Shown here piece by piece: positions 6,746-26,324 of a stretch of DNA of 64,000 nucleotides. The notes beneath the pieces are model-generated. The model was given only the letters and a program-made list of their open reading frames with translations. It ran no database searches and was not told the origin of the DNA. How positions within the stretch are numbered: position 1 is the stretch's first letter; each line of letters begins with the position of its first letter. Source of the stretch: Ruminococcus sp. (GTDB lineage: Bacteria; Bacillota; Clostridia; Oscillospirales; Ruminococcaceae); NCBI GenBank assembly GCA_017478965.1, contig JAFVCV010000047.1:1-64000 (forward strand), read 5' to 3'. The translations under genes were made by a program, and so were the position numbers.

Positions 6746-6780
6746 ACCGGCTGTCACATCTGCGGCAGCCGGTCCTTTTT
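6746..6780 (+). terminator. Intrinsic terminator after the hemolysin III gene
   Basis: The 8-bp stem ACCGGCTG/CAGCCGGT (6746-6753, 6766-6773) is followed by CCTTTTT. Confidence 0.8.
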
Positions 6781-9216: not shown

Positions 9217-9252
9217 AGCTCTCCCCCCTGTAAAATACAGCACATACTACAA

Positions 9253-10972: not shown

Positions 10973-11023
10973 ACCATAACACTCCTTAAACACTCTTCAT
11001 AAAAGAACTCTTCATATCTTCAT

Positions 11024-11040
11024 CGGTCCGCTCCGGACCG
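11024..11040. other. Small GC-rich hairpin between coiled-coil and hydrogenase genes
   Basis: CGGTCCG and CGGACCG (11024-11030, 11034-11040) form a 7-bp stem with a 3-base loop. There is no U-run on the minus strand, so it is more likely a processing or stability element than a terminator. Confidence 0.4.
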
Positions 11041-11044
11041 GGCT

Positions 11045-12163
11045 TTATTTCTTGTCGTTAAGAGCGGCTGCCTGTGCGGCAAGAGCAGCCAGGTCTACGC
11101 CGCCCTTCTTATTGCCCTTATCCTTGTCTTTGCCGTCGTTCTTGCCGTCCTTACCGCCAAGCGATGCGGCCTGTGCAGCAAGTGCGGCCAGGTCCACCCC
11201 GCCCTTCTTGCCTTTCTTATCCTCAGCTTTCTCCTCAGGCTTATCGCCGCCCTTCATAGAATTGGCCATTTTCTGCAATTCCTCAAGCTGAGAATTCGTC
11301 TTTTTCTTCTCACCGCTCACCGGCATCGTCCTAGGCTCCGGAGCCTCAGGATATTCCGGTTCATAATTCTTCGGGACTCTGAACGTAGGCACCCCGCCGC
11401 TCTCCAGTCTCTTCTTGGTCCCGCTCAGCAGCTCCTCAGCCTCCTTCACCTTTTCAAAGCCCTTCTTCTGGAACTCCTCAAAAGCCGCCCTCAGTCTGGA
11501 TACCTCTTCATTTATCGCATCTATATCCTCGTTCAGGTTAGCCCTGAGATTATTTGAGGCGGCGTCCATCTTCTCAGCCTTGTTCTTGGACTCTGCGTCC
11601 GTCTCTGCGGCCTTTTTCTCGGCCTCGTAAACTATCTCGGCAGCGGTGCTGTTAGCGTCCTGTATAATGGACTCGGACAGCTCTCTGCTCTTCTTCTCCA
11701 GCTCACTGGCCTCGTCGGCAGCAGCCTTTTTCAGTGCCTCGGCGCTCTGCTGTGCTGCTATGAACACCTGGCTCAGCGCAACAGCCTCGCTGCCTGCCTG
11801 CAAAGCGTTGAGCTTCGTAGTCGTATCCTCAAACTCTGCTTTCATTTTTTCAAGCTGTCCCTTGACCTCAGCCAGCTCGTCACTGAGTTTCTTATTATCC
11901 TCTTCGGCAGCCTTCAGTTTCTGGTTGAGCGACTCGTTCTGCACCTGCAAACTGGTGAGTTTCGTTTTTTCGCCACCAAGCACCTTTTCATGAGCCTTTT
12001 CTTCATCAGTGCCCTTTTTGAACTCGTCGAGAAGAAGTTTAGCTTCTCTTAACTCATTTTTGCAGTCAAAAAGCTGTGTGTTTACAAATTCGAGTCTTTT
12101 TATGACATCCGCTCTGTCATAGCCCCCGAAATCAACGGTTTTGATGAACCTGCTCTCTGCCAT
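11045..12163 (-). CDS. DivIVA-like coiled-coil protein with repeated Ala/Gln-rich tail
   Basis: The 372-residue protein opens with FGGYDRADVIKRLEFVN, which recalls the membrane-targeting N-terminus of DivIVA/GpsB proteins. A near-continuous coiled coil follows to about residue 250, then a Pro-rich hinge and a Lys/Asp/Gly-rich tail containing two copies of KKGGVDLAALAAQAA, the second at the extreme C-terminus. It is likely a cytosolic scaffold that oligomerises and may mark curved membrane. The gene has its own TTGACA-TATACT promoter and is followed at 72 bases by the sensory hydrogenase gene. I infer a scaffold role; no enzyme domain is present. Confidence 0.75.
   Translation of the reverse strand: MAESRFIKTVDFGGYDRADVIKRLEFVNTQLFDCKNELREAKLLLDEFKKGTDEEKAHEKVLGGEKTKLTSLQVQNESLNQKLKAAEEDNKKLSDELAEVKGQLEKMKAEFEDTTTKLNALQAGSEAVALSQVFIAAQQSAEALKKAAADEASELEKKSRELSESIIQDANSTAAEIVYEAEKKAAETDAESKNKAEKMDAASNNLRANLNEDIDAINEEVSRLRAAFEEFQKKGFEKVKEAEELLSGTKKRLESGGVPTFRVPKNYEPEYPEAPEPRTMPVSGEKKKTNSQLEELQKMANSMKGGDKPEEKAEDKKGKKGGVDLAALAAQAASLGGKDGKNDGKDKDKGNKKGGVDLAALAAQAAALNDKK
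11055..11210 (-). repeat. Two-copy C-terminal peptide repeat in the DivIVA-like protein
   Basis: Two near-identical coding repeats (about 11055-11110 and 11150-11210) encode GGVDLAALAAQAA followed by S/A-L and a charged linker. Duplicated short helices at the end of a scaffold often serve as docking peptides; that use here is inferred. Confidence 0.75.
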
Positions 12164-12324
12164 CTGAATTTCCTCCTTGACCCTGGCCGATAATGCCCGG
12201 CGAAATATTTGTTAAGTGAACGCTGCGGCATTAAAACGATGATAAAATATCTACAAAAGATAAAAATATGCAATTTATACACAATTTATATATTCTGTAT
12301 ATTTGCCGCTGCAATTATAGTATA

Positions 12325-12353
12325 AGTATACATCATTTTTCCACAAATGTCAA
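12325..12353 (-). promoter_or_regulatory. Promoter of the DivIVA-like/hydrogenase transcript
   Basis: On the minus strand TTGACA (12348-12353) is separated by 17 bases from TATACT (12325-12330), leaving a 5' leader of about 150 bases. The extended downstream sequence TATACTTATA also occurs in the promoter at 21379-21407. Confidence 0.75.
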
Positions 12354-12591
12354 TAGATTTTTTTCCAAACGGAAATAAAAATCCGCTGAAATATACAAAA
12401 TAATTTCATAATTTCAGGTGTTCAGATGAATTGACCTGTCTCGGCTCATCATATTATACAAAAGGCTGCCCTGCCGTCTTGTACATTCCCACAAAAAATA
12501 GGGCAAATTGTATAAAACTGGGACCTTTAATTCTATATCCGACATTTTCATTCAATTTATATATTTTTTCTTTCGGCGGATCAGGTTCAGT
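12354..12591. other. AT-rich intergenic region without a supported gene
   Basis: Between the minus-strand promoter and the terminator of the 12642-13196 gene the sequence is AT-rich. The short open frames seen here have no ribosome site and low-complexity translations. I see no RNA gene or repeat. Confidence 0.6.
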
Positions 12592-12630
12592 AATAAAAAC
12601 AGAGCTGTTCAGTTTTTACTGAACAGCTCT
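12592..12630 (-). terminator. Intrinsic terminator of the orphan 12642-13196 gene
   Basis: A perfect 13-bp stem (12601-12613 with 12618-12630) and a 4-base loop are followed on the minus strand by GTTTTTATTA. Confidence 0.9.
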
Positions 12631-12641
12631 GCAGTCCACTT

Positions 12642-13196
12642 CTACCATATATCCTCGCAGTTATCTATCAGGTCCTTGACCTCGGGATTATCGTATAGCC
12701 CCAGATCGAAGAGCCTGTCGGCCTGCCGCTTGGTGATCTTCCCGGAGAGAGAGTAAACGAACTGGCTGTGCTGCCGTTCCGTCCCGTCCCAGGAATCAAT
12801 GATCTTCAGCCACCCGGCCTTGCCAAGAGTCCTCTCCGGCAGTTTTGAACCGCCGAACAGCAGGTCCGCCAGCATAATGGCGCACTTGGTATGGTTCGTA
12901 TAATCGCAGGAATAGGTGTCCCCGTCCGGCGACATCCACCCAAGCTTGAAGTTCTCGTCATTCTTGAAATACATTTTTTCCAGCGGCAGAGGGTATTTTT
13001 TATCGCTTTCGATGATCTCCACAAAGGTGTAATCATCCTTCTTAAAGCTGTAATAGCCGCCTTTTCCATCCAGCACCACCGGCAGCTGATCTTCCGTGAC
13101 ATACTCAAACGGGGTTCCCTTCAACGACTCCAGCGTATCGCAGTATTCATAGCAATAATAGCCTGTTTCAGATTTATACACAGCATATTTTTTCAT
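12642..13196 (-). CDS. Hypothetical protein, 184 residues
   Basis: An unrecognised soluble acidic protein with many aromatic residues. The N-terminal half alternates Tyr/Phe-rich strands (KYAVYKSETGYYCYEYCDT). The C-terminal part reads like a small helical domain (KITKRQADRLFDLGLYDNPE). No signal peptide or membrane helix is visible. It has its own promoter (13259-13288) and a strong terminator, so it is a genuine single-gene unit. The ATG at 13196 is preferred, but a GTG nine bases upstream is possible because the ribosome site is weak for both. The nearest look-alikes I can suggest are small YubB/DUF-type proteins without known function. Confidence 0.7.
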   Translation of the reverse strand: MKKYAVYKSETGYYCYEYCDTLESLKGTPFEYVTEDQLPVVLDGKGGYYSFKKDDYTFVEIIESDKKYPLPLEKMYFKNDENFKLGWMSPDGDTYSCDYTNHTKCAIMLADLLFGGSKLPERTLGKAGWLKIIDSWDGTERQHSQFVYSLSGKITKRQADRLFDLGLYDNPEVKDLIDNCEDIW

Positions 13197-13258
13197 TTTT
13201 CTCACCCACCGTTCCTGAAGATACAGCGCAGTTCATGCTGACCCTACATCTTTATTCT

Positions 13259-13288
13259 ATTGTACCACATCTTTATACCAAATGTCAA
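13259..13288 (-). promoter_or_regulatory. Promoter of the orphan 12642-13196 gene
   Basis: On the minus strand TTGACA (13283-13288), an 18-base spacer and TACAAT (13259-13264). Confidence 0.7.
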
Positions 13289-13347
13289 TATCTTTTACCA
13301 AATTTAAGTTCAGCAAAACTGAACATAATTATTTTTTTATTTTGTTA

Positions 13348-13376
13348 TTGACAATTGTTAATAGATGGTGTATAAT
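13348..13376 (+). promoter_or_regulatory. Perfect-consensus promoter with no gene close behind
   Basis: TTGACA (13348-13353), exactly 17 bases, then TATAAT (13371-13376). The next coding start is 450 bases away and has its own promoter, so this promoter probably drives the candidate RNA at 13383-13509. Confidence 0.8.
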
Positions 13377-13382
13377 ATATTC

Positions 13383-13509
13383 AGAGAACAGTGAGTTCAG
13401 TATTTCGGGCCGTTTTGTGAAAGTGTGCTGTATAGCCTGGTGATATTCTGTTGTTGGTTTAATATATTTATATTTCTTACAGTTCACCTGCTGTGATGCG
13501 GCCTTTTTT
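13383..13509 (+). ncRNA. Candidate small RNA of about 125 nt
   Basis: It starts 7 bases after a perfect promoter and ends in a six-T run (13504-13509). GGCCG (13408-13412) can pair with CGGCC (13499-13503) directly before the T-run, GTGAA with TTCAC makes a second inner helix, and TCAC-N5-GTGA forms an alternative hairpin at the 3' end. No plus-strand ORF of useful length lies inside. No known RNA family was recognised. A long 5' leader of the 13828 gene is the alternative reading. Confidence 0.45.
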
Positions 13510-13644
13510 GATAGCTTTGATTTTTGCAAAACTCGTTTTTAGTTTTCCGGAAGTTTTGTGCATAGTTACTATATTTTTCTCATTTATTCAATTAATTTTT
13601 TATATTATGATTTTTGTTAAATAAATAAAATATTCAAAATTTCC
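13510..13644. other. Very AT-rich spacer
   Basis: About 80 percent A+T by eye between the candidate RNA and the promoter at 13645. No coding or structural signal is visible. Confidence 0.6.
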
Positions 13645-13673
13645 TTGCAATTTTCAATGAAATGTGTTATAAT
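13645..13673 (+). promoter_or_regulatory. Promoter of the two-helix membrane protein gene
   Basis: TTGCAA (13645-13650), 17 bases, TATAAT (13668-13673). The leader to the ATG at 13828 is about 150 bases. Confidence 0.7.
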
Positions 13674-13827
13674 AATTATCAGAGCTACAATGTGTTTGTA
13701 TATCTGTTTTTGAATAGCTTTTGATGACTTTTGTTTTTTTACCGTTTATTTTAAGGCTTTTTTCAGGATTTTATAAGAGCATCGCTCTTCTATCCGTGAA
13801 GTTATCCATGAAGGAAGGAAGATTTGT

Positions 13828-14343
13828 ATGACGTATTCACTCAGTAATATTGAGGACACTGTTGACAGAAAATTTCTTGTTACCAAAGCGCTGACACATC
13901 AGGCAAAGGTCGGCACTATCGTTCATATTATGAGTGCTGAGAAGGCCGGCAATGGCATTATTGTTGGCTACCGTGTTACTGGCACTGGGGATGATTTCAC
14001 TGTTACCTTTGACAATGTTAAGCAGTTCACCCAGTGGGCAAGGCCTGATAATTTCATAGCTCGTCATTATGAGAGCTTTAGTCTGAAGGAGATACAGCAT
14101 TATATCAAGGTGAACAACAGGACCATGACTACCTTTGTTCTGCCTATACTTGCTGCTGCTCTGGTAGTTATCTGGATACTGTGTCTTGCTGTTATCAAGG
14201 GCGGCGTTGGTGTTGTGCTGGGCATCGTTCTTTCTGTTGTTGCTGCCGGTGCTATACTCTGGTTCTATAAAAATCAGAAGTCCAAGGTCAAGCTTGATCT
14301 TTACAGTAAGGTAAGCTCTGACTGGGGCGTTGTCATCAAGTAG
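13828..14343 (+). CDS. Small protein with C-terminal membrane hairpin
   Basis: The 171-residue protein has a soluble N-terminal domain of about 100 residues, then two membrane helices (about 106-123 and 127-146) joined by a short Gly-rich turn, and a short basic tail. Both ends should face the cytosol. The family is not recognised. A strong ribosome site (AAGGAAGGAAG) precedes the ATG. Codon choice leans to GTT, ACT, GGC and CGT, unlike most neighbours, which fits a strongly expressed gene or a different origin. It is a single-gene unit with its own promoter and terminator beside the kinase/vWA operon. Confidence 0.75.
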   Translation: MTYSLSNIEDTVDRKFLVTKALTHQAKVGTIVHIMSAEKAGNGIIVGYRVTGTGDDFTVTFDNVKQFTQWARPDNFIARHYESFSLKEIQHYIKVNNRTMTTFVLPILAAALVVIWILCLAVIKGGVGVVLGIVLSVVAAGAILWFYKNQKSKVKLDLYSKVSSDWGVVIK

Positions 14344-14371
14344 CCGTTGGGCTGCGTTTTAAGTAAATATC

Positions 14372-14407
14372 AAGGCCATGAGTTTTAGCTCATGGCCTTT
14401 TGTTTTT
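14372..14407 (+). terminator. Terminator of the two-helix membrane protein gene
   Basis: An 11-bp perfect stem (14372-14382, 14389-14399) with a 6-base loop, followed by TTGTTTTT. Confidence 0.9.
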
Positions 14408-14420
14408 CATTTTTCACTGT

Positions 14421-14458
14421 AAAATAATATAAAAGCCGGCAGGACATTCCTGCCGGCT
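14421..14458 (-). terminator. Terminator of the kinase/vWA/PP2C operon
   Basis: An 11-bp perfect stem (14434-14444, 14448-14458) closes a 3-base loop, followed on the minus strand by TTTATATTATTTT. It lies directly after the last stop of the operon (14466). Confidence 0.88.
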
Positions 14459-14465
14459 GAAAATA

Positions 14466-15665
14466 TCAAAATCCCTGATTTCTCATTTTCTTCTTAAAGC
14501 TGGAGTCAAGCTTGGCATTCTTCTTCTTCTCCTTGATCTCCTTCATCATATCCTCTTTGGACATACCGCTGTTTGCGCCGCTATCGCTCTTTTCCTCTGC
14601 TGCATCGTCATCATCGTCAACGAATGCGCTAAGTCTCCTCTTGAAAGAAGCGCCGCCTGCGATATTCTGTGAAACCATCTGAGATACCTGCCTGCTCTGC
14701 TGATAGCCTGCGGGAGGGCCTACATGGACGCTGCCAGTGCCGACGCCCTGACCGTAAGGTGCAGCCTGGGGGTAACCGCCCTGCTGAGGATAACCCTGCT
14801 GGGGGTAGCCCTGCTGAGGATAGCCTTGCTGCGGATAACCCTGCTGAGGATACTGAGGATAGCCCTGCTGGGGATAGCCCTGCTGGGGATACTGAGGATA
14901 GCCTTGCTGGGGATAACCCTGCTGAGGATAGCCCTGAGGGTAGCCCTGCTGGGGATAACCCTGCTGAGGATAGCCCTGAGGATAACCTGCCTGCTGCTGA
15001 TAGTAGCCCGGAGGCGGCTGAAATCCGGCCTGACCCATTTGCTGAGCCTGCTCAGGCTGGTCATAAAGAGCCGGAGGAGGCGGAGGAGTCTGGTTCAGTG
15101 CATTAGGTGCATCAAACTCATTGCCGTCAGCGGCAGCCTCATAGAAAGGATTGCTCTCATCGACCTCAAAGCCGTTTACGAACTCAGCAGGCCCGCCCAG
15201 AGCGGCGCCGTCGTCAGGAGCAGCCGAGGGTGCATCATCGTATCCGCTGAGAAAATCGTCAACGAACGAATTCTGGTCACCGGGACGCAGCTGGATCAGC
15301 GTCTTTGCCTCTTCCTCAGACACAGCGGCCTCGGTATTGTTATTATCAACGCTGATAGAAGTCAGCAGGCTGATAGCCTCTTCGTCCGGTGTCACCACGC
15401 TGAGATCGCTGAAATTCATCACGATCATTTCCTTAGCCCTTCTCTGTTTTGCGGCGGTCATTGCCTCCACAGCTGCTGCCTCGGACCTGATAACGCTTAT
15501 CTCCTCGCCATTGAGCTTCAGGGCGGTAACGCCTGTGAAAAGCTCGTCCTTATCGGTCTTTATCACGCAGAGAGTACAGTCGTCTGCGCCAACAAAGCCC
15601 GGTTTTTCCTGCTTGATCTTTTCAGCCAATCCCTTGGCAGTGTTATAAAGTACACCAGTATCCAT
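14466..15665 (-). CDS. Cytidine-deaminase-like domain with PQQGYP-repeat tail
   Basis: The first 115 residues have the order of strands and helices seen in cytidine deaminases ([19 protein letters not shown], then SEAAAVEAM, then EMIVMN). The catalytic (H/C)AE is replaced by RSEAAA and the zinc-binding PCxxC is absent, so it should be a binding domain and not an enzyme. After an acidic spacer comes a long low-complexity segment (about residues 225-300) of QQGYPQ repeats, then a basic C-terminus. Such Tyr/Gln/Pro tails favour weak self-association. It is the last gene of the kinase/vWA/PP2C operon, which suggests it is a substrate or scaffold of that pathway. The deaminase relation is my inference. 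Confidence 0.7.
14769..14992 (-). repeat. Tandem coding repeat for QQGYPQ
   Basis: About a dozen imperfect 15-30 base units (GGATAACCCTGCTG and variants) encode Gln-Gln-Gly-Tyr-Pro-Gln. The unit is kept at protein level with silent changes, so copy number may vary between strains by slippage. Confidence 0.85.
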
Positions 15666-15719
15666 AGATCAACACCTTATTCCTTTCACTTGATTTCGGT
15701 AAATTTATTGCAGCTCACA

Positions 15720-16682
15720 TCAGTAGCCCTTGACATAGAAACAGAGCTGGTTCTTACCATTGGCCTTTGCGCCGAACATTGCAGTCTCTGCCGCTCTGAA
15801 CAAGTCCTCCGAGGACCTTGCATCATCGGGGAACATTGCTGCGCCGTAGCTGGCTGTCAGGGTGAACACCTCTCCCTTGACTTCCATAGGTGTGGCAAAA
15901 GCCTCCCCGATCTTGTTCACAAACTCTGCGACCTGCTCCCTGCCGAACTTCTCTGGTAGGATGATCCCAAACTCATCGCCGCCTATCTTTGCAGCAAAGA
16001 TCTCATCGTCGGCAAGATTTTCGATCAGATGTGAATATCTTACCAGCAGGTCGTCTCCGACCTTATGGCCGAAGGTATCGTTTATATTCCTGAAATTGTC
16101 TATATCCACATAGACTACAGTGCATTTCTCCCCTGCTTTTATCTCGTCCTCCAGGTCCTCAATAAACATCTGCCTGTTAGGCATCTGAGTAAGCCTGTCA
16201 TAATATGCCAGATACTGGAGAGTATCGTCCTTCTCCTTCATTATCCTGTTTGTCTCGATAGCCTGCTGATAGCTTTCCATCAGCTCGTTGTTCATCTTCT
16301 CGTTCTTGCTTGTGAAGAAGTATATCAGAGCAACAATGCCTACAGATATCACAGCGACCACCATTCCCGGCAGAGACTGAGGTGACTTGGCGGCTATCAT
16401 CTGGATAAGTATCGACAGAGCATTGAGGACGTTGAGCACAGCAGAAGTGATAAACCCAGCTTTTCCGCCCATCAGCACCATCACGATAGATATGACCAGC
16501 TGGACCTGAGATACAACGCCGTTATACATCATTACAGGATTAGTTACCTGTCCGCCCTGTGAACCCGACGGAGGTCCGCCGGCCGACATACGGCCTATCT
16601 GTTTCTGCAAAACTACGCAGGCCAGAAACAACACGGCGCCTATAACTACAACTACCACATTTGATTTTTTCTTACTTTCCAT
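15720..16682 (-). CDS. Membrane diguanylate cyclase (GGDEF intact)
   Basis: The 320-residue protein has about four membrane helices in residues 8-125 with an unusual Gly/Pro/Ser loop after the first, a short coiled coil, then a GGDEF domain (about 155-318). The active-site loop is KIGGDEFGIIL and the DxxDRLTxxxNR-like entry YYDRLTQMPNRQ is intact, so it should make c-di-GMP. The feedback I-site RxxD is absent (DDEI at that place). It sits in the kinase/vWA/PP2C operon, 54 bases before the deaminase-like gene, linking that pathway to c-di-GMP signalling. Confidence 0.9.
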   Translation of the reverse strand: MESKKKSNVVVVVIGAVLFLACVVLQKQIGRMSAGGPPSGSQGGQVTNPVMMYNGVVSQVQLVISIVMVLMGGKAGFITSAVLNVLNALSILIQMIAAKSPQSLPGMVVAVISVGIVALIYFFTSKNEKMNNELMESYQQAIETNRIMKEKDDTLQYLAYYDRLTQMPNRQMFIEDLEDEIKAGEKCTVVYVDIDNFRNINDTFGHKVGDDLLVRYSHLIENLADDEIFAAKIGGDEFGIILPEKFGREQVAEFVNKIGEAFATPMEVKGEVFTLTASYGAAMFPDDARSSEDLFRAAETAMFGAKANGKNQLCFYVKGY

Positions 16683-16833
16683 TTTCTTACAACTCCGTTT
16701 ACCCTATTTTTATTTAGATAGATCACTGGTAAAATTGCTCCGTCTCTTGTCAGTTCACAAGTTTTTCAAAGAATTTCCCCGCCTTACGGCAGGGAGGATC
16801 TTTTTTATATCTGCACCGGCAAAACGCTCTGTT

Positions 16834-17751
16834 TCAGTCCTCGGTCTTCAGGCCGGTGGTCAGCAGCTCTTTGCGGCGCTTGGCGGCTTTTTCCTTATTC
16901 TCTGCGACTTTCTTCAGCAGCAGCTCGTTATTTTCAGCCACGCCCTCCACATCGAACACACACGAAAGTGATATATCGTCCTCTGTGCCGAAATGTGACC
17001 GCTTTTCAAGATTCTTATACACCGACGCCTCCATGGCCTCGGCCTTTACGAGATTGCTTGCGATTATGGTATGGAAATCCAGAAAATCATAGTCGCTGCC
17101 GAAAGAGGTATAGAGCCCGTCGGTGGAGGTAAACATAGCCAGCACCTTCTTCTTGTCCCTGTAGAAGCTGTTGAACATGGACGCTGCGTTAGCATTGCAC
17201 ATTGATGCCGTAACATTGGCAGGAGCGCTCTCGTCATACTCCATAGGCAGCACTGCCTCACCGTCGTCAAACACAGCCACCAGGTTCCCGTCGCCTATCA
17301 TCAGCCCGAAACAGAAACCACGTCCTGCAACAGCTGCGATAAGGGTGGTGCCGTAATAGGATTCCACATTTATAGCCGCAAACTCCTCATCGGTAAATTT
17401 GCTTTTCTCTTCAGGTGTAACGGGGTTAGCCGTGATATGCTCAGTTACTTTAGCGTTCCAGGTAGTTATTATCTGTTTTTCGATATTCTTTATGACGGCC
17501 TTGTGACGCTCAGGAAAGCTCTTCTCGAACTCCTCAGGGTCCTGATAGAACCGGTCTATCGTCTCAACTGTGGATTCTACTGCAAATCTGGAACCTACGT
17601 TACTTCTGAAATGTTTTTTGCTGCCGTGGCCGTCAGCGACCACGGCAACCGCATAATACTCTGTTACTTTATGTGCGGAGCTGTCCTGGCAGACCAGATC
17701 CCTGGCCTCATGGCTCGCACCTCTTACAGAACGGCTGAAACCGTTAAACAT
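16834..17751 (-). CDS. PP2C-family protein phosphatase
   Basis: A 305-residue PP2C_2 domain protein. Metal-binding motifs are present: the Asp of CQDSS (about 23), VVADGHGSKK (Asp40), MIGDGNL, TSTDGLYTSF and the late EDDISL. It should remove phosphate from Ser/Thr in the cytosol. It ends in a short helical basic tail. The gene lies 47 bases after the vWA gene and one gene after the kinase, which is the arrangement of the TerY-phosphorylation triad, so the natural opponent of this phosphatase is the kinase at 18729-20072 and likely targets are the vWA or repeat-tail proteins. Confidence 0.92.
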   Translation of the reverse strand: MFNGFSRSVRGASHEARDLVCQDSSAHKVTEYYAVAVVADGHGSKKHFRSNVGSRFAVESTVETIDRFYQDPEEFEKSFPERHKAVIKNIEKQIITTWNAKVTEHITANPVTPEEKSKFTDEEFAAINVESYYGTTLIAAVAGRGFCFGLMIGDGNLVAVFDDGEAVLPMEYDESAPANVTASMCNANAASMFNSFYRDKKKVLAMFTSTDGLYTSFGSDYDFLDFHTIIASNLVKAEAMEASVYKNLEKRSHFGTEDDISLSCVFDVEGVAENNELLLKKVAENKEKAAKRRKELLTTGLKTED

Positions 17752-17798
17752 AACTAATCATTTCTCCTTTCGACTTACTATGCTGATAAAAGTGCTCT

Positions 17799-18620
17799 CT
17801 ACCAGCCGGAATCGAAAGGAACATCGTCCGTCCCGTTCTGCCCAACCAGCTCCTGTATCTGCTGGCCCAGCAGTTTCTGCTTAGCGGCAGATACGTCCTC
17901 CTCGCTGAGCTCATGGTTAGTCTCGTCAGAAAGGGTCATACTCTTACTGCCTATCTGAGATGCTGTAACTGCGATGATCTTTATCATGTTAGCCAGCTGT
18001 TCGCCCGAGTAAGCGTGTACGACAGTGTCCTTAGAGCCTGTGAACTCTGCGAGCATATCGTCATTAGCCTCCTGACCGATGCCCAGTGCGGCTTTAAGGC
18101 CGAACTTATACCAGCTGTTTGCCTGGAGAGCCGCAAGGCCCTTCTTATAGTCGTCCGAAGGATAACCGTCTGTCATCAGGAAGATAACAGGTGCAAAGGA
18201 GAGCGAAGGTGAGTTAAGGAAACTGTTTCTCGACATTCTCACCGACAGTTCCTTGAATGCAGCGCCCATGCTGGTAACGCCGTCTGCCCTCAGTCTTGCC
18301 CACTCGAAGTCCTCGATGGAGATAGGTGCTGAATACATCCACCTTACATCGGTAGAGAAAGTCAGCACAGCCACCTTGACGTCAGTATCGGCCTCGCCCA
18401 CACGGCGTATCTCAGGGATAAGCTCTTCCATAACGGTATTGAGCTCACCCATCTTAGTGCCCTTCATACTTCCCGAGGTATCTATCAGGAAGAAAATTAC
18501 CAGGCTTTTTCTGGAGACGCCGGTAGCGCCAAGGGGATCGTCATCATCGAAGTCAAGCAGGTTATCGAGCTGAGTATCGTCAAGCGCCTGCTTGGCATCG
18601 TTCATATTTTCTTTATTCAT
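17799..18620 (-). CDS. TerY-like vWA domain protein
   Basis: The 273-residue protein has an acidic N-terminal segment and one vWA domain. The metal-binding MIDAS residues are all there: FLIDTSGSMKG, Thr in GVTSMGAAF and LMTDGYPSDD. Cytosolic TerY-type vWA proteins act as metal-dependent adaptor or scaffold units in stress pathways. The C-terminal 30 residues form a helical tail ending in DVPFDSGW. It lies between the kinase gene (108 bases upstream) and the phosphatase gene (47 bases downstream). Confidence 0.9.
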   Translation of the reverse strand: MNKENMNDAKQALDDTQLDNLLDFDDDDPLGATGVSRKSLVIFFLIDTSGSMKGTKMGELNTVMEELIPEIRRVGEADTDVKVAVLTFSTDVRWMYSAPISIEDFEWARLRADGVTSMGAAFKELSVRMSRNSFLNSPSLSFAPVIFLMTDGYPSDDYKKGLAALQANSWYKFGLKAALGIGQEANDDMLAEFTGSKDTVVHAYSGEQLANMIKIIAVTASQIGSKSMTLSDETNHELSEEDVSAAKQKLLGQQIQELVGQNGTDDVPFDSGW

Positions 18621-18728
18621 GATTTACATACTCCCTTTCGTAAATACGCCGCTTGCAGGGCGCATCAGTATTGAGCTTATTAAATTCGGTCTTTTCGCTT
18701 TTGATATTGTCTTTACTGTCCTGTCCTG

Positions 18729-20072
18729 TCAGATCTGAGCCTTGACCTCGCCGAAGTCTATCTCAAGTCCCTGCCAGATCGGGAAACCCTTCCCGGGGGC
18801 TATATCGTAGAAAATGCCGTCGGGCATTTTAGCACGCCATTTTCTTTCCGAACAGTTCTTTATGCCCAGGACCCCCGGCTTGAGCTTATTCTCAACAAGC
18901 TCGCCTGCAAGTGTCTGGAAGTCGTCCGTTTCCGAGCTTATATCGCACTGGAAGAATTTGCAGCCCGGATACAGAGGCATACGGTACTCACGGTTAGAGA
19001 ACCCGAGCGTAGGTATCTCCATACCGCATTTAGGGCATCTGTAGGTCTTATCGTTGGTCTTCTCGAACATAGAAGAGAAGTTCGTCCTTCCGCAGCCGCA
19101 GGTGATTATCTCCGAGCGGAGCCTGGTGAACAGCTTCTGCCATTCGTTCTCGATCACTCTCTTGTTAGGCTCCGAGATGCCTGCGGTAAAGGACTGTATG
19201 AAAGCCTGTCTGATATATTCAGGATATATCCTCCAGAACTTTATAACGTTGTCATGTATTCCCCTTACGGGTCTGTTGCTGGCATTGTCAGGGTCATAAA
19301 CGAACACTGCGTTCTGCCCGTAATGTTTCAGCTCAGAGGACTCTGTCAGGCAAACGTCCTTGACAACTTTCTCGCCCTCCATGGGGTCCCCTCTGAACAG
19401 CAGCTTGAACAGTACCACTGCCAGGGAATACTTATCGGTCTGCACATTAGGCTTGGCTATGCCTCTTACGACCTCCGGAGCCATATAGCCAGGCTTACCG
19501 CCGATGCCGAAGTTGCTGCCGTCAGGAGCGATATTGTCGCAGTCGCAGACCAGTATAGCGCCTGTGTTCACATTTATAAAGAAGCCGCCGTCATTAAGGT
19601 CCTGATAGCTCTTGCCGGATCTGTGCAGCTGTCTGAACGCATTGACTATATTGATGACCGCAGTCACCATAGCGAACAGGCTGCCGAACCTTACGGGCTT
19701 TTTGGTAGCCCTGCCTGTCAGGGGGTCCACCTCCAGCTTATAGGTATTGAGTATATCTACAAAGGAGTCAAAGCTGTCAGGTTTCAGCTCCATCAGATAG
19801 CCGAAGGTCCCGTCCTCAGTTTCCTTGGTCAGATACTTGGGCCAGAGGAACTTATTGCTCGGTGCGCCCGCATTGATATTGTCCTGTATATTCTTGCGGA
19901 ACGCCTTGGGTTTCTTGATCTTGTCCACGTCATACCATTTCAGTGCCCAGTTGGTACCGCTGTACTTCACACGGTAAACGATACCCTGGCCGCCGCTGCC
20001 GATCACGCCGAGGACCTTGGCCTTGCCGCCGAACTCCATCTCGACTTCCTGGCCTATTTTAAGCTCATTCAT
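18729..20072 (-). CDS. Divergent protein kinase with C-terminal zinc ribbon
   Basis: The 447-residue protein has a kinase fold: glycine loop GSGGQGIVY (25-33), Lys45 in WALKWY, catalytic Asp in YQDLNDGG (about 156), the DFG counterpart reads CDCDN, and the activation-loop end is GYMAPEVV. The usual Lys after the catalytic Asp and the metal-binding Asn are replaced (DLNDGG). This is typical of vWA-linked kinases as far as I recall, but could mean low activity. Residues about 330-365 hold a zinc ribbon (CGCG...CPKCG). It is the second gene of the operon, following the zinc-ribbon/LRR gene by 74 bases. Confidence 0.9.
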   Translation of the reverse strand: MNELKIGQEVEMEFGGKAKVLGVIGSGGQGIVYRVKYSGTNWALKWYDVDKIKKPKAFRKNIQDNINAGAPSNKFLWPKYLTKETEDGTFGYLMELKPDSFDSFVDILNTYKLEVDPLTGRATKKPVRFGSLFAMVTAVINIVNAFRQLHRSGKSYQDLNDGGFFINVNTGAILVCDCDNIAPDGSNFGIGGKPGYMAPEVVRGIAKPNVQTDKYSLAVVLFKLLFRGDPMEGEKVVKDVCLTESSELKHYGQNAVFVYDPDNASNRPVRGIHDNVIKFWRIYPEYIRQAFIQSFTAGISEPNKRVIENEWQKLFTRLRSEIITCGCGRTNFSSMFEKTNDKTYRCPKCGMEIPTLGFSNREYRMPLYPGCKFFQCDISSETDDFQTLAGELVENKLKPGVLGIKNCSERKWRAKMPDGIFYDIAPGKGFPIWQGLEIDFGEVKAQI

Positions 20073-20146
20073 TGAATTTCCATCCTTCCGTATCCACCGC
20101 TTCAGCGGTTATTATAATGCTTGATCTTATGCTCATCACAAATATA

Positions 20147-21253
20147 TCAGTCATCGTCCTCCACCGACTTCTTCCTGCTCCTCAGCGAGATGCCGGTATT
20201 CACTGTCTCGACCTTCAGATCATTGGTCAGGCAGTACTTATGGACGTATGAATTCTTATAGCAGTGTATAGTAAGATTTTCGCAGAATGCGAAGGCTTTG
20301 TCTTCAATAAATTTTACACTTTCGGGAATGAACAGCTTTTTGAGCATCTCGCAGCCCTGGAAAGCTCCGGAGCCTATGCTGCTCACTGTAGCCGGTATCT
20401 CGACCACTTCAAGACTGGTACACAGTTCAAAGGTATTATCAGCTATCTCATGTATACCCTCCGGTATCTTCACCACCGCAAGCTTGGTACACTGGCTGAA
20501 GGCGCCCTTGCCTATCACTTTGACCGTAGGCGGTATGTCTATGCCCCTGAGTCTCTTGCAGGAGGAGAACGCATAGTCGCCGATGCCCAGCAGGGTAGAG
20601 GGCAGCTTGACAGTCTTCAGGAACCCAAAGCCCTCAAAGCAGAAATTGTCTATCTTCGTATACCCTTCCGAAATGGCGATATTGCCCGATAGCCTGTGCC
20701 TTATAGCATCGAGCGGCGCATAGACGTTGGCGTCTATGAACACAGGACCTCTTCTCTTCCTTTCTTCCTCTTCCTTTTCGATCTCCTCAGGTTCCTTTTC
20801 CCTCAGAGGCGATTCGTAATGCCAGCCTATCATGTATGTATAGCAGGCAAGCACGAACTCAGCGGCATTGGGTGAAAGGAAGAAATCCTCCAGCATATAA
20901 TTCTTGGCTTTCTGGACAGCCACCGTCTCATTCTCGGCCCTGAGCATATTTATCAGCACGTTCTGGAATATCATGCGGATAAGCAGCTTTCGCTCCCTGT
21001 CATGCTCAGGCAGGTAGTCTCTCATCAAAGCGATGAACCTGGGATCTCTCTTCACTATCAGTCCTATCCCGTACTCATCGACCATGGACTTGAGCTGCTC
21101 CTGGATATCGGTAGTGGACTCAAACCCCAAGATAGTCTGCAGAACCGGGCCTTCACCAGCCTCCCCCTCCGAGGCGGGCCTGACGGGCGTGCCGCACTTG
21201 GGACATACGGTCACATCCGGGCTAAGCTCTGCGTGACAGTTCTCACACTGCAT
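20147..21253 (-). CDS. Zinc-ribbon plus BspA-like LRR protein
   Basis: The protein begins with a zinc ribbon (CENCHAELSPDVTVCPKCG, residues 3-21) and has a helical middle domain to about 170 with a highly charged KE-rich segment. About six LRR_5 repeats follow (FEGFGFLKTVKLPSTL and similar) and a basic tail. It is cytosolic and probably a protein-binding adaptor. The ATG at 21253 follows GGGAGAG at 7 bases and starts right at the zinc ribbon; the upstream ATG at 21271 overlaps the ribosome site. It is the first gene of the six-gene operon and shares the zinc ribbon idea with the kinase and the LRR type with the protein at 7666-9216. Confidence 0.85.
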   Translation of the reverse strand: MQCENCHAELSPDVTVCPKCGTPVRPASEGEAGEGPVLQTILGFESTTDIQEQLKSMVDEYGIGLIVKRDPRFIALMRDYLPEHDRERKLLIRMIFQNVLINMLRAENETVAVQKAKNYMLEDFFLSPNAAEFVLACYTYMIGWHYESPLREKEPEEIEKEEEERKRRGPVFIDANVYAPLDAIRHRLSGNIAISEGYTKIDNFCFEGFGFLKTVKLPSTLLGIGDYAFSSCKRLRGIDIPPTVKVIGKGAFSQCTKLAVVKIPEGIHEIADNTFELCTSLEVVEIPATVSSIGSGAFQGCEMLKKLFIPESVKFIEDKAFAFCENLTIHCYKNSYVHKYCLTNDLKVETVNTGISLRSRKKSVEDDD

Positions 21254-21378: not shown

Positions 21379-21407
21379 AGTATATCACTTATTCTATAAA
21401 TTGTCAA
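21379..21407 (-). promoter_or_regulatory. Promoter of the kinase/vWA/PP2C operon
   Basis: On the minus strand TTGACA (21402-21407), 17 bases, TATACT (21379-21384). The leader is about 120 bases. The downstream TATACTTATA is shared with the promoter at 12325-12353. Confidence 0.8.
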
Positions 21408-21828: not shown

Positions 21829-23010
21829 ATGAACAGTAAAAAGAGAAAGTTGTTCAGTAAACTTGCTTTGTGTTCATTAGCGATGACCATGGTGTTCTCC
21901 GCCGGCAGCTGCGGCAAGGGCGAAGAGTCCAACGGCAAGATCGCAGTCATCGGCCAGTCCAAGACCGTACAGTTCTGGCAGTCTGTACAGAAGGGTGCTG
22001 AAGACGCAGGCGAGGAAATGAACTATGAGATAATCTACAACAACGCCGAGGACGGCAACGATGTACAGGGACAGGTAGATTTCATCAGACAGGCCATAAA
22101 TGAGAAGGTCAAGGCGATAGTCATCGCACCCAACAGCTCCAGCGAGCTCAACTCCGTTCTTCAGGAGGCTGACCGTGAGGGCATTCAGGTAGTGGCCATC
22201 GACGCCGACCTGACCTACTCCGGCAAAAAGACCTATCTCGGCACCAACAACCTGGCTGCGGGTTCTGTGGCTGGCAGACAGGCTCTGAGGATACTTGAGG
22301 GCGGCGGAAAGATCGCTGTGATATCACAGAGCGAGGGTTCCACCACCGGTGCGGACAGAGTGCAGGGGTTCACCAATGAGATCTATTCCTACAATTCTTC
22401 CGCTGCGGCAGCCATGGCCAGGAACACGGGCATGGAGGACATCTCTACGGAGGAAGAGGACACTGAGCTGTCTCAGGCAGAGATCGACGAGGTGGCATCT
22501 AAGACCAGGTTCGAGGCGCTCAATATCCTTCCTATAAAATACTGCAACAACAGCAGAGAGACAGCCAAGCAGCAGGCTGCCAGCATAATAAAGGATAATC
22601 CCGATCTTAAAATGTTCTACGGCACCAACGAGACTTCCACCCTTGGCATCTGCGACGCCATAAAAGAAGCCGGAAAGACCGGTGAGATCAGCGTCATAGG
22701 CTTCAACTCCAACGACGACGAGATAAGATACATCATCGACGGCACCCTTGACGCTCTGGTGGTACAGAACCCCTATAACATGGGTTATCTTGGCGTAAGG
22801 TATTCAGACAAGCTCCTTAACGGCAGCAAGATCTCCATAAACGTTGACACCGGCGTTATACTCGTTACGCCTTCAAACATCAATACTTCAGACATCCAGC
22901 TGCTGCTCTATCCCGATGATCCGGACAGCAATAAGGTAGACAGTATACGTAATGCTATGCGTGGAGAGGCTAACGAAGAAGCCGCCGCTGATGAAGCAGC
23001 ACAGAATTAA
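21829..23010 (+). CDS. Sugar-type ABC substrate-binding lipoprotein without transporter
   Basis: A 393-residue lipoprotein with signal peptide and lipobox (FSAGSC), then a type I periplasmic-binding fold of the ribose/xylose class (Peripla_BP_4). Visible are IAVIGQSKTVQFWQSV at the start, AIVIAPNSSSELNSVL, VVAIDADL and GTNNLAAGSVAGRQ. The ATG at 21829 follows AGAGGAGG by about 10 bases; the longer frame from 21727 would precede the ribosome site. No permease or ATPase gene is adjacent. Instead a GGDEF-type membrane protein gene follows at 19 bases, so this protein probably serves as the sensing subunit of a signalling pair. The ligand is unknown, likely a sugar. Confidence 0.9.
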   Translation: MNSKKRKLFSKLALCSLAMTMVFSAGSCGKGEESNGKIAVIGQSKTVQFWQSVQKGAEDAGEEMNYEIIYNNAEDGNDVQGQVDFIRQAINEKVKAIVIAPNSSSELNSVLQEADREGIQVVAIDADLTYSGKKTYLGTNNLAAGSVAGRQALRILEGGGKIAVISQSEGSTTGADRVQGFTNEIYSYNSSAAAAMARNTGMEDISTEEEDTELSQAEIDEVASKTRFEALNILPIKYCNNSRETAKQQAASIIKDNPDLKMFYGTNETSTLGICDAIKEAGKTGEISVIGFNSNDDEIRYIIDGTLDALVVQNPYNMGYLGVRYSDKLLNGSKISINVDTGVILVTPSNINTSDIQLLLYPDDPDSNKVDSIRNAMRGEANEEAAADEAAQN

Positions 23011-23029: not shown

Positions 23030-24229
23030 ATGGAGAATAAAAAATCAGGCGGTTCAGCCACCTATATCGTTGCGGCCATCGTGCTGGCAGTCGTAACTCT
23101 TACGAGTATGTTCCTTATGTACTACTCGTTCACTCTTACAAACAAAGTGACCGAAGAGAGCAACGAGGCCACCAGAGACATCAACACTATGAACGAGGAG
23201 CTGATGTCCATCAACCGTAACGTACTTATGATAATCTCAGGCACGGGCAATCCTGACAACCTGATGATAGATATCTCAAACTCGTTCAACCACATCTATG
23301 AGCTGGATACGGCTTATAAGGAGCTGGAGAACAACTCCGAGCTGACCCTGAGAAGATATGACCAGGCCAAGATATTCATTGACGCTTATTACAACAAGAT
23401 AGCCGACTATCAGGGCACCCTGGCAAATATCGAAAAGAACCAGGCCAGCATGAAAAACGTTTATACTCAGGAGATACACCCCCTTCAGATCACCGCATCG
23501 GAAATGTTTGCTGCCGCATCTGAGATAGGTGCGAAGTATTCCGCTCAGCGTACTGCTGATATGTACAGGATCTTCTACATCGTTGAGGCTATCATGGGCG
23601 GTATCCTTATCATCGGTGAGATAGCTATCATCATCATCGCAAGGATCGCCAAGAGGAACAGACGTGAGATGGAGAGGAGAGCTGAAGAGATAGCTGAGGC
23701 TGACAAGAAGCTGAGAAAGTCCCGTGAGAAGATGAGCGACATCGCTATGACCAACATCCTTACAGGTCTGAAGAACAGATATGCCCTTAACGATGATATC
23801 TCCGATCTGCTGGAGGACGACCAGTTCAATATATCCGTTTTCGATATGGACAACTTCCGCAGCATCAACGATATGTACGGCTACGATTTCGGCGACGAAT
23901 ATCTTGCACTTGTATCTGAAAAGCTCAAGGAAGAGTTCGCAGAGTATGCCGAGATATACAACATCACCGGCAACGAGTTCTGCTTTGTATTCAACAGAGA
24001 AGTCTCGGATTCTCAGGCAGTGAGGATATCCGAAAGGATACTGGAAACTCTCAGGACCCCCTACACTGTATTCAACATAAACGTTCAGCTCACAGCCTCC
24101 GGCGCTACCTACCACTATCTGCCCGGCGACTGCGTGAACGTGGCCTCTGTGCTCGTAAGACTGGATAACGTTATCCGTGACGTCAAGAGAAACGGCGGCA
24201 ACAATATGTACCCTGTTTCAGGTATCTGA
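23030..24229 (+). CDS. Membrane protein with degenerate GGDEF domain
   Basis: A membrane helix at about 10-32, an extracellular helical domain of about 140 residues, a second helix (about 182-205), a basic coiled coil and a GGDEF-type domain (about 240-395). The fold landmarks are kept (LTGLKNRYAL, FDMDNFRSIND, FGDEYL), but the active-site motif reads TGNEF instead of GGDEF, so cyclase activity is doubtful. It may bind GTP or c-di-GMP, or act as a protein switch. The outer domain is the likely docking site for the binding lipoprotein encoded 19 bases upstream. Confidence 0.88.
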   Translation: MENKKSGGSATYIVAAIVLAVVTLTSMFLMYYSFTLTNKVTEESNEATRDINTMNEELMSINRNVLMIISGTGNPDNLMIDISNSFNHIYELDTAYKELENNSELTLRRYDQAKIFIDAYYNKIADYQGTLANIEKNQASMKNVYTQEIHPLQITASEMFAAASEIGAKYSAQRTADMYRIFYIVEAIMGGILIIGEIAIIIIARIAKRNRREMERRAEEIAEADKKLRKSREKMSDIAMTNILTGLKNRYALNDDISDLLEDDQFNISVFDMDNFRSINDMYGYDFGDEYLALVSEKLKEEFAEYAEIYNITGNEFCFVFNREVSDSQAVRISERILETLRTPYTVFNINVQLTASGATYHYLPGDCVNVASVLVRLDNVIRDVKRNGGNNMYPVSGI

Positions 24230-24383: not shown

Positions 24384-26324
24384 ATGGACAAAAAATATTT
24401 GCAGCTGCTCTCTAAGGATTATCCCACTATAGAAAGTGCTGCCAGCGAGATAATAAACCTGTCGGCCATTCGCAGCCTGCCTAAGGGAACGGAGTATTTT
24501 TTCAGCGATATGCACGGAGAATATGAGGCTTTTCTGCATATGCTCAAAAGTGCCTCGGGAATGATAAAGATAAAGATAGATCTGGTACTTGGCAAGACAG
24601 TGTCCGGGGCCGAGAGAGAGAGCCTGGCCGAGCTTATCTATTATCCCGACCGTCAGCTGAAAAAACTCGTAAGAGAGGGGACCCTCACCGACGAGTGGCG
24701 CAGGCTGACTATCTACAGGCTCATCCTGGTCTGTGAGGCCGTTTCCGCCAAGTACACAAGGTCAAGGGTCAGAAAAGCTATCCCTCAGGATATGGTGTAT
24801 ATCATAGATGAACTGCTGAACGTCACCGATGATGTGAACAAGGACTACTATTATGACGAGATAATCAGCACCATCATCGAGACAAAGATAGCCGACCGTT
24901 TCATTGCCGCCCTCTGTATGGTCATACAGTCCCTTGCCATAGACAGGCTCCATATCATCGGTGATATCTTTGACAGAGGGCCGAGGGCAGACATCATCAT
25001 GGACGAGCTGCTGAAAATGCACGATGTGGATATACAGTGGGGAAACCACGATATATCATGGATGGGGGCCGCATCAGGGAATATGGCTCTTATCGCCAAT
25101 GTTATCAGGATAGCCATGAGATATAATAACTTCGACGTTCTTGAGGACGGCTACGGGCTGAACCTGAGAGCGCTGGCAGTCTTTGCGGCGGAAGCCTACA
25201 AGGACGACAGCTGTGAGATATACACCCCGAATACTTTAGATGACAATATCTATGACCCGGTGGACCTGAGACTGGCCGCAAAGATGCACAAGGCCATCAC
25301 CGTTATCCAGCTGAAGCTGGAGGGCCAGCTCATCGAAAGGCACCCGGAATGGGAGATGGGCGGGAGAGATATCTTCCGGCAGACGGACTTCAGGGCCGGA
25401 ACGGTCCTTATAGAGGGAAAGACGCATAAGCTCCTTGACCGGAACTTCCCCACCGTGGACCCGCAGGACCCGCTGAAACTCAGCAGCGGCGAGCAGGAGC
25501 TGATGAATGTCCTGGCCAATTCTTTCAGACACAGTGAAAAGCTAAGAGAGCATATGAGGTTCCTTTACTCAAAAGGCTCGATGTACAAGGCCTGCAACGG
25601 GAACCTTCTGTTCCACGGCTGCATACCGCTTGACGGGAACGGGGAGTTTCGCAGCATAGAAATAGAGGGCAGGCAGTACGCCGGCAAGGAGATGCTGGAC
25701 AAGCTGGACGAGATAGTGAACAGGGCATATTTTATGTCGCCCTGTGAGGAGAAGGACTATGCGGCGGACTTTCTCTGGTATCTATGGTGCGGACCATGGT
25801 CGCCCCTTTACGGCAAGGACAAGATGGCATTTTTCGAGCGGTATTTTCTGGAGGATAAGGAGCTGCATAAAGAGCGCTACAACGCCTATTACACCTATTC
25901 GGAGACTAAAGAGACCTGTGAGAGGATACTCACGGAGTTCGGCCTTGACAAGGACAGGGGCCATATCATAAACGGCCACGTACCGGTGAGGATAAAGAAC
26001 GGTGAAAGTCCTGTGAAGGCGGGTGGAAAGCTGTTCGTCATCGACGGCGGCATATCCAAGGCCTACCAGAAGGCTACAGGCATAGCAGGATATACGCTCA
26101 TCTACGATTCCCACAGCCTTAATCTTGCGGAGCACAAGCCTTTCATACCCGGCGAGAGCGAGCACACGCCCACCATTCATCTGGTGGAAAGGCTGGAGCG
26201 CCGGGCAAACATCAGCGACACCGACAAGGGCGCAGAGATTGCCGAGAAGATAGCCGACCTGAAGGAACTGCTGAAAGCCTATAGGACCGGTGTGCTGAAG
26301 CAGATCATCACAGGACGGCAATAA
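24384..26324 (+). CDS. fbp: Fructose-1,6-bisphosphatase class 3
   Basis: A 646-residue protein of the Firmicutes-type FBPase_2 family, of normal length (about 640-670). It hydrolyses fructose 1,6-bisphosphate to fructose 6-phosphate in gluconeogenesis. Metallophosphatase motifs are visible: SDMHGEYEAF near the start, IIGDIFDRGPRAD and WGNHDISWMG, then INGHVPV and FVIDGGIS towards the end. The ATG at 24384 follows GGAGG by 7 bases; the longer frame upstream would overlap the promoter and is rejected. It is a single-gene unit with a perfect promoter. Confidence 0.96.
   Translation: MDKKYLQLLSKDYPTIESAASEIINLSAIRSLPKGTEYFFSDMHGEYEAFLHMLKSASGMIKIKIDLVLGKTVSGAERESLAELIYYPDRQLKKLVREGTLTDEWRRLTIYRLILVCEAVSAKYTRSRVRKAIPQDMVYIIDELLNVTDDVNKDYYYDEIISTIIETKIADRFIAALCMVIQSLAIDRLHIIGDIFDRGPRADIIMDELLKMHDVDIQWGNHDISWMGAASGNMALIANVIRIAMRYNNFDVLEDGYGLNLRALAVFAAEAYKDDSCEIYTPNTLDDNIYDPVDLRLAAKMHKAITVIQLKLEGQLIERHPEWEMGGRDIFRQTDFRAGTVLIEGKTHKLLDRNFPTVDPQDPLKLSSGEQELMNVLANSFRHSEKLREHMRFLYSKGSMYKACNGNLLFHGCIPLDGNGEFRSIEIEGRQYAGKEMLDKLDEIVNRAYFMSPCEEKDYAADFLWYLWCGPWSPLYGKDKMAFFERYFLEDKELHKERYNAYYTYSETKETCERILTEFGLDKDRGHIINGHVPVRIKNGESPVKAGGKLFVIDGGISKAYQKATGIAGYTLIYDSHSLNLAEHKPFIPGESEHTPTIHLVERLERRANISDTDKGAEIAEKIADLKELLKAYRTGVLKQIITGRQ

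Follow-up and report, generated by a model that had tools for sequence, protein, structure and literature searches.

A 64,000-nucleotide stretch of a Ruminococcus sp. contig (JAFVCV010000047.1), referred to below as the window, carries on its minus strand a run of six genes, confirmed by gene calls and Pfam matches, that extends from position 21253 down to 14466. In this order, they encode a leucine-rich repeat (LRR) protein, a divergent Ser/Thr kinase, a vWA protein, a PP2C phosphatase, a GGDEF protein, and a protein, here called TAIL, with a cytidine-deaminase fold and a repeat-rich tail. Judged by gene linkage, five of these genes (all except that for the GGDEF protein) form a cassette in which, in Ruminococcus and closely related genera, a signaling triad, TerY-P, is stably joined with another two core proteins. 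It is quite possible, if somewhat short of probable, that the cassette is a TerY-P-type phospho-switch acting through an LRR adaptor, which bears a domain that we named MID, and through a pseudo-deaminase TAIL, with synthesis of cyclic di-GMP (c-di-GMP) as an optional output. The triad itself is known; new are the MID domain, the deaminase-fold TAIL with its GGDEF-paired relatives, and a reduced LRR-kinase-TAIL form. Among the literature matches listed, none dealt with this cluster or with a deaminase-fold/GGDEF pair, as judged by title or the opening of the abstract. A triad with a single adaptor and a single partner, together with the reduced form, offers a small, defined protein set in which to seek the input and the output.

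Conservation of the cassette and its triad

Conservation was assessed in overlapping samples, and counts were not summed across them, save for the 10 and 13 deaminase-fold/GGDEF pairs described below. The named loci are the best 80 of 234 kinase loci in named genomes. An LRR gene lay upstream of the kinase gene in 78 of the 80 and a TAIL gene downstream in 74, both exceptions to the former and all six exceptions to the latter being contig ends. Of the 74 named loci with a TAIL gene, 71 had the complete series LRR-kinase-vWA-PP2C-TAIL, in this order; as for the other three, L153 starts inside the kinase gene, and no PP2C gene was detected at L162 or L165. Since a GGDEF gene lay between the PP2C and TAIL genes in only 16 of the 74, we regard the core as five genes, with the GGDEF gene as an optional sixth.

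Within the family, 197 genomes were sampled, of which 42 had a kinase match and 24 a strong one (at least 320 bits, the next score being about 80; this cut was chosen after viewing the list). The genes for the LRR protein, kinase, vWA protein, and PP2C followed in this order at all 16 family loci (L061 to L076), and combined searches found TAIL at all 16, in line at 14 and on the opposite strand at 2. At these two (L075 and L076), GGDEF-GGDEF-TAIL forms a separate convergent unit next to the triad. Furthermore, four loci (L277, L282, L283, and L284) consisted of LRR-kinase-TAIL, with no vWA or PP2C gene in the 8 kb read and with the zinc site of TAIL lost, implying that adaptor, kinase, and TAIL belong together. 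The initial annotation had treated the six genes as one operon, a view to be given up if the three additional genes seldom adjoined the triad in related genomes. The LRR and TAIL genes did adjoin it wherever the contig reached, both in the named loci and at L061 to L076; this did not extend to the GGDEF gene or to the loci of more distant kinases (L077 to L084).

All 80 named loci are titled Ruminococcus, Oscillospiraceae, or uncultured Clostridia/Clostridiales, and R. albus and R. flavefaciens are among their hosts. Both species degrade cellulose in the rumen, and the circuit may thus be relevant to the response of fiber-degrading bacteria to their substrate.

The type of triad found here is reportedly associated with Anantharaman et al. 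2012. As defined in a published account (PMC11090510), TerY-P comprises a TerY-like vWA protein, a PP2C phosphatase, and a kinase with a C-terminal zinc ribbon; it is linked there to tellurite resistance and DNA-processing systems, and its role as a metal-sensing phosphorylation switch is put forward as a hypothesis. By domain matches and alignments, the window triad fits this definition, as had been proposed for it. The vWA protein (P0003, 273 amino acids [aa]; 17799..18620, minus strand, as for all six genes) agrees at the level of a VWA domain (40.9 bits) with an intact MIDAS, residues D47, S49, S51, T116, and D151 being invariant in all 18 aligned copies. The phosphatase (P0004, 305 aa; 16834..17751) matched PP2C_2 with 117.6 bits (E = 7.1e-34). 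The kinase (P0002, 447 aa; 18729..20072) matched Pkinase with 43 bits against a cut-off of 31.7 and has, past the kinase domain, a CxC...CxxC zinc ribbon whose four cysteines (Cys325, Cys327, Cys346, and Cys349) are invariant in 19 of 19 aligned kinases (59 to 83% identity); the sole Pfam zinc-finger match in this region was below the cut-off (13 versus 21.3 bits). It retains the glycine-rich loop, Lys45, Asp158, and Asp177 (n = 19; Asp158 is absent only in L077), with YQDLNDGG in place of HRDxxxxN and DCD in place of DFG. Thus, the cassette shares with TerY-P an intact-MIDAS vWA protein, a PP2C phosphatase, and a zinc-ribbon kinase encoded by adjacent genes, whereas it differs in the addition of a MID/LRR adaptor, a deaminase-fold TAIL, and sometimes a GGDEF protein. 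Besides, the kinase, vWA, PP2C, GGDEF, and zinc-ribbon/LRR calls made at the outset were matched in Pfam (Pkinase, VWA, PP2C_2, GGDEF, LRR_5, and Zn_Ribbon_1). We also observed, at L077 (6001-8262), a second kinase of one genome in which the catalytic-loop Asp is lost and which is followed by a PP2C gene, without LRR, vWA, or TAIL genes.

The MID domain and the TAIL protein

The LRR protein (P0001, 368 aa; 20147..21253) is composed of an N-terminal zinc ribbon (Zn_Ribbon_1, 28.8 bits), the MID domain, and BspA-type repeats (LRR_5, E = 5.5e-46). It starts with MxCE in 13 of 17 aligned copies, and the zinc ribbon is absent in L073 to L076. MID is a name coined here for residues 38 to 152 (20798..21142), a region that is probably helical, judged by eye, and that had no Pfam match in any scanned protein. 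Its identification as a known domain was dropped on this ground and because the best PDB profile match had an E value of 0.12. In a profile-profile comparison, the cassette MID matched the MID of proteins encoded next to distant triads (probability, 99.1; E = 6.1e-19), whereas a control comparison with the vWA alignment gave a probability of 0.2. In these neighbors of distant triads, MID is combined, by Pfam, with Sel1 repeats (L181, L078, and L185), DUF6273 (L083), or DUF1292 (L185), and, by eye or by custom profile, with LRRs (L183, where MID was assigned by eye and the LRRs by custom profile, not Pfam) or membrane segments (L080 and L182).

MID was found in 23 of the 24 family genomes with a close kinase (G122 being the exception) and in none of the 173 without (Fisher, 4e-29); in an order sample, it scored above 50 bits in 9 of 295 genomes, with four further marginal matches, and all 8 close-kinase genomes of a 285-genome order sample were among these 9. 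Some of the genomes counted (11 of the 23 in the family and 5 of the 9 in the order) had themselves contributed rows to the MID profile. Judged by this distribution, MID is a marker of the protein partners of this kinase group and is plausibly the part by which such clients dock; it provides a sequence handle for finding them. The protein in which the initial annotation envisaged an LRR/zinc-ribbon receptor does have both domains, but it is better described as a MID-class protein of this kinase. A 525-aa BspA-type LRR protein without a MID match is encoded elsewhere in the window (7666-9243, minus strand).

TAIL (P0006, 399 aa; 14466..15665) has a cytidine-deaminase-fold N terminus (residues 1 to 125) followed by QGYPQ repeats (14 GYPQ words in the window copy) and a conserved C terminus with a basic stretch, as indicated by homology, motif states, and tandem repeats. 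PF00383 was matched in 5 of 16 relatives, with E values of up to 0.1 and a best value of 1.6e-5. The window copy had no Pfam match, and cassette copies scanned singly stayed under the PF00383 cut-off of 25 (L066, 22.7; L073, 18.7), which was reached by three of the five paralogues scanned (L187, L250, and L252, and not L246 or L247). Of the earlier description of P0006 as a deaminase-like repeat protein, the fold and the repeats stand; the zinc ligands are all lost in the window copy, which has RSE and PDEEA where H/C-x-E ... PCxxC is expected, and an active deaminase in the window was rejected on this ground. A paralogue in the same genome (G000:C49, L187:6030-6716) keeps HAE and PCSGC and matched PF00383 with 26.2 bits. 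Among the named cassette copies, the zinc ligands are all intact in 11 of 74 (the L107 copy, ended by a contig edge, was scored as not intact), and more often at loci with a GGDEF gene (6 of 16) than at those without (5 of 58; Fisher, 0.010, the loci not being independent). Going by these motifs, TAIL is a pseudo-enzyme in most cassette copies. It resembles cytidine deaminases in its fold and, in TAIL relatives, also in the HAE/PCxxC zinc site, whereas it differs in its long Q/G/Y/P-rich tail, its conserved C terminus, the loss of the zinc site in the window copy, and the pairing of intact-site relatives with GGDEF genes. Gene order was kept even though TAIL identity (23 to 50% among 16 aligned copies) falls to about 25%. 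A search against PDB returned a single match, the repeat tail of a rhodopsin, which we attributed to composition.

P0005 (320 aa; 15720..16682; GGDEF, 131 bits), the product of the optional gene, has an intact IGGDEF signature, on which it is predicted to be a diguanylate cyclase, and, on visual inspection, about four membrane helices. In the window genome, there are 25 GGDEF matches (24 above the cut-off) and two TAIL-type genes, each adjoining a GGDEF gene. Among the stand-alone TAIL matches, 15 neighborhoods were read, 11 of TAIL-type genes and 4 of ordinary cytidine deaminases as controls; this selection did not include G073 (a 287-aa frame, 50.6 bits) or others that scored similarly or lower. 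The zinc site was intact at 10 of the 11 TAIL-type loci, and a GGDEF gene lay directly downstream in 10 of these 10; the eleventh (L253) had lost the site and had no GGDEF neighbor, nor did any of the 4 controls. A genus hold-out set yielded 15 intact-site copies with a GGDEF gene directly downstream in 13 of 13 testable cases (L278 and L287, where the contig stops before the next gene, were not counted); these genomes are closely related to those of the first set, and at what appear to be three of the loci, extra TAIL matches had emerged already in the analysis of the named loci. In both sets together, the gene directly after the intact-site relative is a GGDEF gene in 23 of 23 testable cases; the gaps range from -1 to 91 bp, and the signature of the partner is GSDEF in 21 and GDDEF in 2. 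The intact stand-alone TAIL goes with a GGDEF gene, whereas the degenerate TAIL goes mostly with the LRR-kinase pair.

A Cache-like region in the partner GGDEF proteins was below the cut-off in two, weak in a third, and absent from the fourth scanned. Beyond the window genome and G019, the order search returned, by length and score, almost exclusively short matches of cytidine-deaminase length, and the pair was therefore dropped as a feature outside the family. A possible, though rather tentative, account is that an intact-site deaminase-fold protein with a low-complexity tail and a GSDEF/GDDEF protein encoded directly downstream make up a two-gene nucleotide-signaling module. In Ruminococcus, a copy of the deaminase-fold protein would have been captured by the TerY-P cassette; its zinc site would then have been lost in most cases and the protein turned into a phospho-controlled cyclase partner. 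The pairing suggests a way to regulate or diversify cyclic-dinucleotide signaling. Two further arrangements were observed: L073 has seven tandem GGDEF genes between its PP2C and TAIL genes (9295-16050), of which three encode xGDEF, three SGDDF, and one a protein whose signature was not found, and in the window genome a gene for a GGDEF-EAL protein (L187, 956-2467, plus strand) lies some 2 kb away from the pair of intact-site deaminase-fold and GGDEF genes.

Proposed mechanism and rival explanations

In the mechanism that we propose, the adaptor and the vWA protein would deliver a signal to the kinase, MID being the domain by which clients would join it, and the kinase and PP2C would set the phosphorylation of the vWA protein, TAIL, or both. 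The N terminus of the vWA protein contains a conserved DDDPLxxTxVS stretch (n = 18), a possible phosphorylation site. TAIL would then bind or release a diguanylate cyclase, either the one encoded in the operon or, at loci that lack it, a different one, and c-di-GMP would change. We infer this mechanism as a whole, including the phosphorylation targets and the control of a cyclase, from linkage. The best functional analogue that we found is SiaABCD of Pseudomonas aeruginosa, in which, according to PMC7647112, a kinase and a PP2C phosphatase determine whether a go-between protein, through which a diguanylate cyclase is controlled, is phosphorylated. As there, a kinase/PP2C pair and a predicted diguanylate cyclase share a putative operon in the window (and in the 16 named loci with a GGDEF gene). 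SiaC, in contrast, resembles anti-sigma antagonists, whereas TAIL has a deaminase fold; none of the six window proteins had an anti-sigma-antagonist-like Pfam match, and no relation of TAIL to SiaC was seen. The Ruminococcus cassette also differs from SiaABCD in adding the vWA and LRR proteins and in the cyclase being optional.

Several observations weigh against this mechanism. No GGDEF gene was found between the PP2C and TAIL genes in 58 of the 74 named loci (custom profile, cut at 130 bits); many GGDEF partners have altered signatures, with no plain GGDEF in any of the seven L073 copies, and the role of such partners may therefore be nucleotide binding instead of c-di-GMP synthesis. In the kinase, the catalytic-loop Asn is missing, Gly163 being invariant at its position in 19 of 19 aligned copies, and the L077 kinase lacks even the catalytic Asp. 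TAIL has no invariant Ser or Thr among 16 aligned copies and was not found beside the distant kinases L077 to L084 (L077, with 59% identity, occurs as kinase-PP2C alone; L078 to L084 have 37 to 47% identity). With regard to MID, the ninth MID genome of the order sample, G225, has no listed kinase or vWA match, although the kinase and MID samples differ and G225 possibly lay outside the kinase search, and MID and kinase are on different contigs in G036 and G460. Finally, the loci counted share ancestry and hence are not independent. The c-di-GMP output suggested by the initial annotation accordingly gains from the pairing of TAIL relatives with GGDEF genes and loses from the scarcity of the in-operon gene, which implies that c-di-GMP made by a cyclase of the operon is not a necessary output. 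As far as sequence comparison goes, the observation made at the outset is right, and for the LRR and TAIL proteins stronger than could be known at that time, whereas its interpretation is partly supported.

The loci without a GGDEF gene, set beside the seven copies in L073, would also suit an alternative in which the cassette is a TerY-P stress or defense switch with an output unrelated to c-di-GMP, TAIL being a structural protein or a scaffold that clusters the kinase complex via its Q/G/Y/P tail and the GGDEF gene an incidental insertion. The many GYPQ words of P0006 and the link of TerY-P triads to tellurite resistance and DNA processing (PMC11090510) are consistent with such a switch. We nevertheless hold it less likely, because TAIL relatives pair with GGDEF genes apart from the triad, and a GGDEF gene still adjoins TAIL where the pair leaves the triad strand (L075 and L076). 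Moreover, in a PADLOC scan the kinase matched Mad6, PD-T4-6, and, once, C3a189, and the GGDEF protein weakly matched Cmr5 and DRT; none of these matches indicated a whole system, and a defense system was dropped as a candidate.

We regard as improbable a nucleotide-sensing switch, in which the deaminase fold of TAIL would sense a nucleotide and inform the kinase while cyclases alter the same pool. The fold is kept although the zinc ligands are lost in most cassette copies, and the intact site is commoner with a GGDEF gene, both of which such a switch would explain; the window copy, however, has lost all of its zinc ligands, so that any ligand binding would have to be metal-independent. Conserved synteny, with the genes adjacent through common ancestry and not as a functional unit, seems very improbable. 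Although the restricted host range of the named loci and the less fixed wider neighborhood at L061 to L076 (4 to 8 of 16 per gene) are in its favor, gene order survived the divergence of TAIL noted above, and neighboring genes are linked selectively, which argues against mere synteny. This is seen in the 57 named loci that span 19 kb or more when about 10 kb around the cassette is considered (thresholds chosen after viewing the lists): the LRR, kinase, vWA, and TAIL genes were present in 57 of 57, whereas the two window genes used as controls, FBPase (24390-26324) and a YitT-like gene (6779-7651), were near 0 of 57 and, in the family, 0 of 16 loci.

Transcription signals and neighboring genes

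The promoter and terminator first noted as bracketing the six same-strand genes were recovered. A consensus scan placed a sigma-70-like promoter (TTGACA-17-TATACT with an extended TG; 11 of 12 positions of the -35/-10 consensus) at 21379..21407 on the minus strand, and this pair (21407-21379) ranks among the top four of the 30 promoter-like matches that the scan gave over 12 kb (mean of shuffles, 15.1). The intrinsic terminator (14421..14458, minus strand) has an 11-pair stem (14458-14434), 8 pairs of which are G-C, and a T-rich tail. From LRR to TAIL, the intergenic gaps are 74, 108, 47, 151, and 54 bp. The 151-bp gap, ahead of the GGDEF gene, contains a hairpin (16776..16795, minus strand; 8 pairs and a weak tail in a terminator-like scan) that is weaker than the terminator and is a possible attenuator; for this reason, a single transcript of the six genes is only plausible.

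Divergent from the cassette, on the plus strand, lie a sugar-binding-protein-like gene (21838-23010; near the cassette in 46 of the 57 long named loci and 7 of the 16 family loci) and, after it, the gene for a GGDEF protein with an altered signature, TGNEF by eye (23030-24229; 47 of 57 and 7 of 16). On the minus strand, a 567-aa protein resembling sensory [FeFe]-hydrogenases (9290-10993) combines ferredoxin motifs and an FeS domain with an Fe_hyd_lg_C match (85 bits) and a C terminus that resembles a coiled coil; a hydrogenase-like iron-sulfur protein is encoded near the cassette in 49 of 57 (on the cassette strand in 15 of the 49) and 4 of 16. In PMC6776011, loci of Group C sensory [FeFe]-hydrogenases are described with a Ser/Thr phosphatase, and the window resembles them in having a hydrogenase-like protein near a kinase/phosphatase cassette; it differs in that this protein is a separate unit and had no PAS domain in the Pfam scan, a feature of Group C. 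The genes for a coiled-coil protein with weak DivIVA/SMC matches (11045-12163, minus strand; 48 of 57 and 4 of 16) and for a 187-aa protein that had no family assignment (12642-13205, minus strand; 39 of 57 and 4 of 16) also recur, as does that for a 171-aa protein (55 of 57 and 8 of 16). The selective linkage of these neighbors hints at possible sugar and redox or hydrogen inputs.

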